64,000 nt of DNA from Chitinophagales bacterium (GTDB lineage Bacteria > Bacteroidota > Bacteroidia > Chitinophagales > CAIODY01), in the NCBI GenBank assembly GCA_947452995.1, contig CANGEV010000001.1, positions 62,001 through 126,000 on the forward strand. Direction: 5' to 3'. This document shows, piece by piece, positions 21,370 to 23,652 of this stretch (positions within the stretch are counted from its first letter, which is position 1; each line of letters begins with the position of its first letter). A program made the translations under genes and the position numbers. The notes under the pieces were generated by a model. The model saw only the letters and a program-made list of their open reading frames with translations. It searched no databases and was not told where the DNA came from.

Positions 21370-21390
21370 TTCATTCTTCTGAATGTATAA

Positions 21391-21418
21391 AAATCCCGCT
21401 TCGGCGGGATTTTTTTTT
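21391..21418 (+). terminator. Intrinsic terminator of rplKAJL with a UUCG tetraloop
   Basis: AAATCCCGC/GCGGGATTT stem closed by a C(UUCG)G tetraloop, then nine T residues. It shares AAAAATCCCGCTTCG and GCGGGATTTTTTT with the rpoB terminator at 7996-8029. Confidence 0.96.
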
Positions 21419-21460
21419 GCCTTCTTGCAAACACATTGTCGTTTTCATTGTTTAATAAAG

Positions 21461-22165
21461 ATGGGAAATATACTTATCATAGGCGCCTCAGGTGGAATAG
21501 GTTTGGCTACTGCTTTACAACTTCAAAATGAAGGTCATAACGTATATGGCACCTATTTTAAAAACGAACAAGTCGTAAGTGAATACCCATTAATCAATTG
21601 GTTACCATTAGATCTGTCCAACTTAGATTCACTCCATTGGATTGAAAAGCTACCAGAACAACTTGATGGGTTATTTTATGCCGTAGGAAAAGTAACATTG
21701 AAACCTTTCAACCGAATTTCATTACAAGATTTTTTGGAAGATTATAAACTTCAAACACTCGGCGCAATACACGTTGTACAACAAGTATTAAGCCATCTTA
21801 AAAAAAGTAATCAAGCCTCCGTGGTGTTTTGCTCTAGTGTAGCCTCGCAAATAGGATTTCCATTTCACGCACTTATTGGCTCCTCAAAAGGCGCAATTGA
21901 AGGAGTTACAAAAAGCTTGGCTGCCGAATATGCTCCAACAATTCGTTTTAACGCTATTGCCCCCTCCATAACTGCAACCAAATTAACTGCACAATTTATT
22001 AATAGCCCGGAAAAACGAGCAATACAAGACTCCAAGCATCCAATGAAACGCATTGGAGAAACTGAAGATGTCGCACAACTTGCAAGCTTTTTATTAAGCA
22101 ATAAATCCGCTTGGATGACGGGACAAATAATTCCCATGGATGGAGGGATAAGTGCAATCAAATAA
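21461..22165 (+). CDS. Short-chain dehydrogenase/reductase lacking the catalytic Tyr, paired with photolyase
   Basis: A 234-residue SDR from the ATG at 21461 (MGNILIIGASGGIG). The longer frame from 21383 merely reads through the rplL terminator. The Rossmann motif GASGGIG is at 8-14; a catalytic Ser is available in CSSVAS and Lys in SSKG. The YxxxK tyrosine is replaced by Ile (sequence HALIGSSK). The C-terminus RIGETEDVAQLASFLLSNKSAWMTGQIIPMDGG is normal for the family. The replaced Tyr means classical carbonyl reduction is doubtful; a changed mechanism or a non-enzymatic NAD(P)-binding role is possible. The stop TAA overlaps the photolyase ATG (TAATG), so the two are translationally coupled. 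Substrate unknown. Confidence 0.82.
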   Translation: MGNILIIGASGGIGLATALQLQNEGHNVYGTYFKNEQVVSEYPLINWLPLDLSNLDSLHWIEKLPEQLDGLFYAVGKVTLKPFNRISLQDFLEDYKLQTLGAIHVVQQVLSHLKKSNQASVVFCSSVASQIGFPFHALIGSSKGAIEGVTKSLAAEYAPTIRFNAIAPSITATKLTAQFINSPEKRAIQDSKHPMKRIGETEDVAQLASFLLSNKSAWMTGQIIPMDGGISAIK

Positions 22166-23652
22166 TGAAGCATCTTATAGTATTTCCTCATCAACTTTTC
22201 GATGAGCTATCTTTCCTTAAAGAGTTTGATAAAATATCATTGGTAGAAGAATCACTCTTCTTTAAACAATTCCCATTTCATAAAGCCAAGCTTGCCTTCC
22301 ATCGGGCAACCATGAAGAATTATGAAGCATGGCTTTTATCGAATGGAATAATAGTTGAATATATCAATTGCACTTCATCAGAAAGTGATATTAGAATATT
22401 GATAGAACATTTAACTGTGGATGTCCTACATTTTTGGGAGTCACATGATGACTGGCTACAACAACGTATTGAAAATACTTCACAGGTTTTTAAGAAGAAA
22501 ACATTCTATCATCAAAGTCCCTATTTCATAAATAGTGAAAAAGAAATTAGAGACTATTTCAACACTAAAAAACGCTATCTACAGAACGATTTTTACATCG
22601 CACAACGTAAAAAACGTTCTATATTAATGGATGGTGTAGCGCCTGCCGGAGGACAATGGAACTTCGATAAAGACAATCGATTAAAATACCCTAAAAATAA
22701 AATTGCTCCTTCACTGAATGCATGTGATTCAGAAGAAGAAATCCGATATAAAGAAGAAGCTAAAAGATACATAGAAACGAATTTCCCAACTAATCCTGGT
22801 GAAATTACGAATAGACTACCCTATCCGATTTCTACATCGGCTGCGAGAAAATGGCTTGTACAATTTATCCAAAGCAGATTCTCAGAATTTGGTCCTTACG
22901 AAGATGCCATGGTGAGTAATGAAATTGTATTACATCATTCTGTTTTAACGCCGATGCTAAACATAGGACTATTAACAACGGAAGAAATAATAGAAGCTAT
23001 TCTAAAACAAGCGCCAAACACTGCTTTGCCTACCCTAGAAGGATTTATAAGGCAGCTTATAGGATGGCGTGAATTTATTCGCGGTATTTACTTGATTAAA
23101 GGAAGAAAAGAACGTACCTGTAACTATTGGAAATTTAAAAGAAAAATCCCTAAAAGCTTTTGGGAAGGACATACAGGAATTCCCCCAATTGATATCACCA
23201 TCAAGAAAATTCTAGAAACAGGGTATTGTCATCATATAGAACGATTAATGCTTTTAGGCAACTTTATGCTTTTGTGTGAATTCGATCCAGACGAAGTCTA
23301 TCATTGGTTTATGAGTCTTTTTATTGATGCTTATGATTGGGTGATGGTACCAAATGTTTATGGCATGAGTCAATTCGCAGATGGCGGCATAATGGCTACC
23401 AAGCCCTATATATCAGGTAGTAACTATGTTCGTAAAATGAGTGATTTTCAAAGTGGTGAATGGACAGAAATTTGGGATGCGTTGTTTTGGAATTTCATGG
23501 ATAAACAACGGAGTTTCTTTGCCAGTAATCCGCGTTTAAGTATGCTATTAGGCACCTTAGATAAAATGTCAACCGAAAAGAGAGAAGGCCACCTTGTTAA
23601 AGCAGAAAACTATTTAAATTCACTTGATTCACAAGAGAAATATAGGCTATAA
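22165..23652 (+). CDS. Cryptochrome/photolyase-related protein (PhrB/CryB-like family) without Fe-S cysteines
   Basis: A 495-residue protein from the ATG overlapping the SDR stop. N-terminal DPRP domain (HLIVFPHQLFDEL), the conserved GGQWNFDKDNR segment, and the FAD-binding helical domain (IGWREFIRGIY, HHIERLMLLGNF, YDWVMVPNVYGMSQFADGG, TKPYISGSNY). This is the prokaryotic (6-4) photolyase/CryB lineage, whose best-known members carry a [4Fe-4S] cluster. Here the positions that I align to its four cysteines are not cysteine: Pro in GIPPID, and the whole Cys-containing loop after KMSDF is replaced by QSGEWTEIWD. FAD binding looks intact. Role: light-driven repair or light sensing, not separable by reading. 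A 6-bp inverted repeat follows at about 23691-23705. Confidence 0.85.
   Translation: MKHLIVFPHQLFDELSFLKEFDKISLVEESLFFKQFPFHKAKLAFHRATMKNYEAWLLSNGIIVEYINCTSSESDIRILIEHLTVDVLHFWESHDDWLQQRIENTSQVFKKKTFYHQSPYFINSEKEIRDYFNTKKRYLQNDFYIAQRKKRSILMDGVAPAGGQWNFDKDNRLKYPKNKIAPSLNACDSEEEIRYKEEAKRYIETNFPTNPGEITNRLPYPISTSAARKWLVQFIQSRFSEFGPYEDAMVSNEIVLHHSVLTPMLNIGLLTTEEIIEAILKQAPNTALPTLEGFIRQLIGWREFIRGIYLIKGRKERTCNYWKFKRKIPKSFWEGHTGIPPIDITIKKILETGYCHHIERLMLLGNFMLLCEFDPDEVYHWFMSLFIDAYDWVMVPNVYGMSQFADGGIMATKPYISGSNYVRKMSDFQSGEWTEIWDALFWNFMDKQRSFFASNPRLSMLLGTLDKMSTEKREGHLVKAENYLNSLDSQEKYRL

Follow-up and report, generated by a model that had tools for sequence, protein, structure and literature searches.

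A PhrB-lineage photolyase gene of a Chitinophagales bacterium that lacks the [4Fe-4S] cysteines, and its cluster-free relatives

The window, that is, the whole stretch of 64,000 nucleotides of Chitinophagales DNA analysed here, carries an open photolyase reading frame of 495 codons (495 amino acids) on the forward strand, which begins with the ATG at 22165. The gene, its upstream neighbour and the sites discussed below are listed by window position. Roles of PhrB residues, and published work in general, are given as in the passages of the cited papers drawn on here.

21461-22165, + strand: short-chain dehydrogenase/reductase (SDR) gene upstream; its frame was listed from 21383, and the ATG at 21461 is the likelier start
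22165-23652, + strand: cluster-free PhrB-lineage (prokaryotic 6-4) photolyase, from the PhrB match, the Pfam domains and the AlphaFold2 model
22666-22668, + strand: Asp168, aligned to PhrB Asp179, predicted Mg2+ site (PMC12082625)
22903-22905, + strand: Asp247, aligned to PhrB Asp254, predicted Mg2+ site (PMC12082625)
23161-23163, + strand: Trp333, aligned to PhrB Trp342, electron chain (PMC4619345)
23173-23193, + strand: TGIPPID, residues 337-343, with Pro341 at the position of PhrB C350, from alignments and conservation in the clade
23233-23235, + strand: His357, aligned to PhrB His366, which PhrB needs for 6-4 repair (PMC4619345)
23305-23307, + strand: Trp381, aligned to PhrB Trp390, electron chain (PMC4619345)
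23407-23427, + strand: Tyr415 to Tyr421, the ends aligned to PhrB Tyr424 and Tyr430, lesion binding and repair (PMC4619345)
23449-23478, + strand: QSGEWTEIWD, residues 429-438, a short turn replacing the CxxC...C loop of PhrB (C438, C441, C454), from alignments

The window protein matched PhrB (4DJA) over residues 21-489 with an E value of 3e-75. Both domains that mark the PhrB/CryB lineage were found above the Pfam cut-off, namely the N-terminal DPRP domain (PF04244, 1.8e-46) and the FAD-binding domain (FAD_binding_7, PF03441, 2.2e-07). A structure prediction, which the original prediction had proposed as a check, gave a PhrB-type fold: the best AlphaFold2 model, built without ligands, had a mean pLDDT of 90.7, and its closest solved fold was PhrB 4DJA (Z 43.8, rmsd 2.0 over 486 residues). 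The next closest were the Caulobacter, Synechococcus and Vibrio enzymes and CryB (Z 40.0-42.7), and the first photolyase of another class appeared at Z 26. The window protein is a full-length photolyase of the PhrB lineage.

In PhrB the [4Fe-4S] cluster is held by C350, C438, C441 and C454. The original prediction stated that the Fe-S cysteines are missing from the window protein, that a Pro of GIPPID stands opposite one ligand site and that the loop is replaced by QSGEWTEIWD, and all three statements were borne out by HMMER and MAFFT alignments. None of the four ligands is present. Pro341 of TGIPPID aligns to C350 in both alignments, and the loop of C438 and C441 is about 10 residues shorter, so that these two positions fall within the shortened part (gapped in one alignment, with Q429 opposite C438 in the other); C454 corresponds to Glu435 in the MAFFT alignment. 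In the model, residues 426-431 form a turn joining the helices 419-425 and 432-447, with a mean pLDDT of 90 at residues 421-430 and 97 at 431-440. Since it has none of the four Cys ligands that define the FeS-BCP proteins, we do not file the window protein among them. In having no Fe-S cysteines, it agrees with subgroup M of the prokaryotic 6-4 photolyases.

The distribution of the ligands was then counted in proteins from three sources: 80 named loci (the best 80 of 283), 395 Bacteroidota genomes, that is, of the phylum of the window, and 244 genomes from the phylum of a Nodosilinea genome (the cyanobacterial sample). Matches occurred in 132 of the 395 and 74 of the 244 genomes; 30 of the latter 74 were fetched and gave 21 cluster-free and 9 four-Cys proteins. 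Among the 180 aligned rows, which include PhrB and the window protein, keep some partial rows and omit the duplicates L001, L034 and L125, 102 lack every ligand Cys and 78 carry the full set of four; no row is intermediate. In PhrB numbering, the cluster-free rows have G347 (101/102), P350 (101/102) and D352 (100/102), with L124 as the divergent exception. The nearest relative, L035 from a Chitinophagales MAG (69% identical), has the same ligand state as the window protein. The absence of the ligands is thus not a matter of chance, because the Pro and the Asp are nearly invariant and L035 shares the ligand state. In the Bacteroidota sample, 40 of 133 matches scored at least 357 bits, every one of them cluster-free in type (L123, one of the 40, ends before the loop and shows the Pro only), while the next best match scored 304 bits. 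From the 93 lower-scoring matches 30 were fetched, all with four Cys, and the other 63 were not fetched. Judged from these sequences, the cluster-free state is a sharp all-or-none trait consisting of the TGIxPxD motif and the deletion. Moreover, exactly one form was found in 131 of the 132 matching Bacteroidota genomes and in all 74 of the cyanobacterial sample; the exceptional genome, which is 13% contaminated, has two equal matches. The two forms were never found together in one genome, as would be expected if both do the same job.

A phylogeny with ligand mapping, also proposed at the outset, indicates that the cluster-free branch is real and that the window protein lies inside it. When 91 of the 180 rows, selected by us, were placed in a tree with the ligand columns removed, a single branch separated 54 cluster-free from 37 four-Cys rows (SH-aLRT 99, no bootstrap). 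The cluster-free side holds Bacteroidota, SAR86 and cyanobacteria. The Bacteroidota rows group together (support 85), as do the SAR86 rows, and the cyanobacterial rows stand beside them at two or more places; the row nearest to the window protein is L035. Eight cyanobacterial cluster-free rows of this clade (L155-L158, L160, L161, L164, L168) come from genomes of 1.6-1.7 Mb. The Bacteroidota group includes L057, a protein from a MAG labelled Methylococcaceae, which points to misbinning or transfer.

Was the cluster lost, or was it originally absent? In a first, quick tree with an outgroup, the outgroup fell inside the cluster-free rows and the four-Cys rows formed one group (99), with outgroup branches of 8-10 changes per column. 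In a second, careful tree with 18 outgroup rows and the motif columns removed, the cluster-free clade (99/94) fell inside the four-Cys rows, with an outgroup branch of 8.3; the outgroup branches are saturated in both trees. An AU test rejected neither the topology holding the four-Cys rows together (p-AU 0.059) nor the complementary set (0.074). We lean towards a single loss of the cluster, because the second tree nests the cluster-free clade among the four-Cys rows. Visual inspection of 29 other photolyase-family proteins showed TGxxxxD at the place of TGIxPxD in 27 (the exceptions are L197 and L214), whereas the four-Cys proteins have TxMxC there. Since TGIxPxD resembles the TGxPxxD of other photolyase families, we also consider that the cluster-free clade may bridge the Fe-S enzymes and the other photolyases, in which case the cluster would be a gain, or would have disappeared a single time before the origin of all the cluster-free families. 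This bridging position is rather unlikely, as the outgroup-rich tree speaks against it.

As for the active site, the original prediction that the FAD-domain motifs are intact was right in the main. H366, L370, Y424, Y430, D179, D254, W342 and W390 of PhrB are all kept, but E403 is replaced by Met and Y391 and Y460 by Phe. All four residues of the 6-4 site (H366, L370, Y424, Y430) and both Mg2+ aspartates, here Asp168 and Asp247, are identical in 102/102 cluster-free and 78/78 four-Cys rows. The H366A mutation abolished repair by PhrB, which also depends on Y424 to bind the lesion and on Y430 to repair it efficiently (PMC4619345); in the Caulobacter enzyme, the Mg2+ aspartates correspond to D178 and D253 (PMC12082625). 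Y391 is Phe in the window protein and in 102/102 cluster-free rows, and the Y391F mutant of PhrB repairs as the wild type (PMC5887102). E403, near FAD N5, is Met in 102/102 cluster-free and 17/78 four-Cys rows, and W342, which is Trp in the window protein, is Tyr in 82/102 cluster-free rows. According to PMC4619345, the homologues without the cysteines lack a Tyr at 437; contrary to this, 77/102 cluster-free rows have it in our alignment, and the disagreement may reflect an alignment shift beside the deletion.

We next consider the neighbouring genes. The stop codon TAA of the SDR gene overlaps the ATG of the photolyase gene by one base (TAATG), so that translation of the two is probably coupled. 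The SDR frame as listed (21383-22165) opens within a strong hairpin of the terminator type (21389-21414) that follows rplL. An SDR-photolyase pair also occurs in the sole other member of the genus with a photolyase gene, and in L030 the SDR gene lies downstream. Under a looser clustering, SDR-type genes lie within 3 kb at 13 cluster-free loci (the window and both copies, L034 and L035, of one relative counted) and at 3 four-Cys loci. We rejected the SDR as a fixed operon partner and regard it as a loose neighbour only, the TAATG pair having been found only in the window and L034/L035.

Of the 93 cluster-free loci with at least 600 bases on a side, 31 have genes of the photolyase family within 3 kb, in 30 cases on the same strand; under the looser clustering, this holds for 13 of 48 four-Cys loci. 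A small protein family, of which the one member scanned is TIGR03643, neighbours the photolyase at 23 cluster-free loci and at 2 four-Cys loci. In the genome of the window, a TIGR03643 gene (L217) and a gene for a short FAD-domain protein (L004) are separated by about 1 kb on a different contig, C10. L004 is photolyase-like, with a frame of 365 residues in which no N-terminal antenna domain was seen, and proteins related to it are encoded next to cluster-free photolyases in other Bacteroidota. On contig C33 the same genome encodes L003, a photolyase/cryptochrome-family protein of 493 residues (best NCBIfam score 146 bits against a cut-off of 506), relatives of which adjoin cluster-free photolyases in L005, L014, L021, L022 and L037. 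At nine marine Bacteroidota-type loci (L040, L044, L045, L046, L052, L054, L058, L059, L060), a protein of about 140 residues is encoded directly downstream of the photolyase, on the same strand and touching or overlapping it; the one member scanned had no NCBIfam match.

We therefore think it probable, with good though not full confidence, that the window gene encodes a light-driven (6-4) photolyase that needs no Fe-S cluster. The substrate, the Mg2+ use, the electron path and the structural substitute for the cluster would then be as follows. Blue light would be absorbed by an antenna pigment and FAD, and the reduced FAD would pass an electron to the (6-4) photoproduct. His357 would donate a proton, and Mg2+ at Asp168 and Asp247 would steady the charge until the bases are restored, while Trp333 and Trp381 would keep FAD reduced. 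The roof subdomain, which the [4Fe-4S] cluster pins in PhrB, would be closed by the short turn of residues 426-431 and TGIxPxD, so that no cluster would be needed. Cys-ligand mutants of PhrB were insoluble or unexpressed (PMC4619345), and a cluster-free fold would therefore presumably require such compensation. The substitutions at Y391, E403 and Y460, and the Tyr at W342 in most cluster-free rows, count against the 6-4 reading.

The antenna seems to differ from that of PhrB. At the residues of the DMRL-type pocket, the E37-R108 salt bridge and H43, the window protein has Phe32, Trp97 and Phe38, respectively; E33 and K47 are kept, and the genome of the window encodes lumazine synthase (for DMRL). 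In a search of this genome for the FO synthase of 8-HDF, the matches to the CofH model scored 291 and 286 bits, short of the cut-off of 374; we take them to be relatives from the menaquinone pathway. For this reason, an 8-HDF antenna is unlikely.

It has been suggested that the marine picocyanobacterial Phr2, which is cluster-free, repairs cyclobutane dimers (CPDs), and the window protein might do the same. The survival data tend to favour this, in that E. coli was protected by Phr2 of Synechococcus RS9916 from UV-B, which makes few 6-4 products (PMC9426592, 2022). However, Phr2 was protective against UV-C too (PMC9426592), a full-length class I-like CPD photolyase (L002) is encoded separately in the genome of the window, and H366 and its neighbours, which are 6-4-specific in the PhrB work, are invariant in the cluster-free rows. 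This invariant site speaks against the published CPD proposal for cluster-free forms, and we regard CPD repair by the window protein as improbable.

Equally little credence is given to a cryptochrome-like blue-light sensor without repair, as was once argued for CryB. E403M and Y391F near FAD, the altered antenna pocket and the gene-regulation roles of RsCryB (PMC9178010) would suit a sensor. Against this, the lesion-binding Y424, the catalytic H366 and both Mg2+ aspartates are kept, photolyase-family genes are frequent neighbours of the cluster-free loci, and no regulator was noted adjoining the window gene.

It is very improbable that a cluster is bound through other ligands or between subunits. 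The window protein does have five Cys, and Cys is found at C371 in 82/102 and at C355 in 35/102 cluster-free rows, but its remaining Cys are not common in the clade, the other frequent Cys column (61/102) is Thr in the window protein, and 4/102 rows, some rows being partial, have a single Cys. When the Cys columns of the 102 cluster-free rows were counted, no conserved four-Cys replacement site was found. A decayed or chimeric gene, conceivable in a draft genome of 36 contigs, is refuted by the conservation, as the ligand state is common to the nearest relative, the 102 rows and 40 of 133 Bacteroidota matches, and the active site is invariant.

Our preferred reading, a (6-4) photolyase without a cluster, is not without precedent. 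Mg2+-stimulated repair by PromaPL was reportedly described by Ma et al. in 2019. The premise that the lineage is described with an Fe-S cluster is out of date if the cluster is taken as the sole form (PMC4619345, 2015; PMC9178010, 2022): the cysteines were absent in 7% of 464 homologues in the former, and the latter placed 20 of 110 proteins without the four Cys in subgroup M. PromaPL is cited as a cluster-free prokaryotic (6-4) photolyase (PMC9178010, PMC9426592). The discussion of PMC9426592 also mentions a V. cholerae Phr2-like protein without Fe-S cysteines, with which the legend of its own Figure 2, as well as the naming of the Vibrio structure 8a1h/7ykn as FeS-BCP, disagrees. That is, cluster-free PhrB-type photolyases are already published, and the window protein is a further, well-placed example. 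What is added here to the published branch is the all-or-none trait, the spread in Bacteroidota, the frequent photolyase neighbours and the invariant 6-4 active site.

What the [4Fe-4S] cluster does in prokaryotic (6-4) photolyases is described as still unclear (PMC12082625). The idea that a cluster-free branch could clarify this role is sound, although it is not new. Natural cluster-free enzymes with all the lesion-site residues and a short turn at the place of the cluster loop are the best controls, and comparison with PhrB could separate a structural from an electronic role where the PhrB Cys mutants failed through insolubility. The Bacteroidota members widen the choice of such enzymes beyond picocyanobacteria, and the invariant His bears on the disagreement between 6-4 and CPD repair.

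Compared with known systems, the window protein resembles subgroup M (Prochlorococcus PromaPL and picocyanobacterial Phr2; PromaPL was compared by its description) in having PhrB-type N-terminal and FAD domains without Fe-S cysteines, and proteins of its clade from picocyanobacterium-sized genomes in the cyanobacterial sample have the same deletion and a TGIxPxD motif. It differs from the cyanobacterial and SAR86 members compared in its sequence (about 34-48% identical) and its phylum. With PhrB of Agrobacterium (FeS-BCP, 4DJA) it shares the fold, 31% identity and the active-site residues; unlike PhrB, it lacks the four cysteines and has a shorter loop, Y391F, E403M and Y460F, and an antenna pocket changed by E37F, H43F and R108W. 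CryB of Rhodobacter (3ZXS) and the Caulobacter, Synechococcus elongatus and Vibrio enzymes are of the same family and fold, but they bear the cluster.
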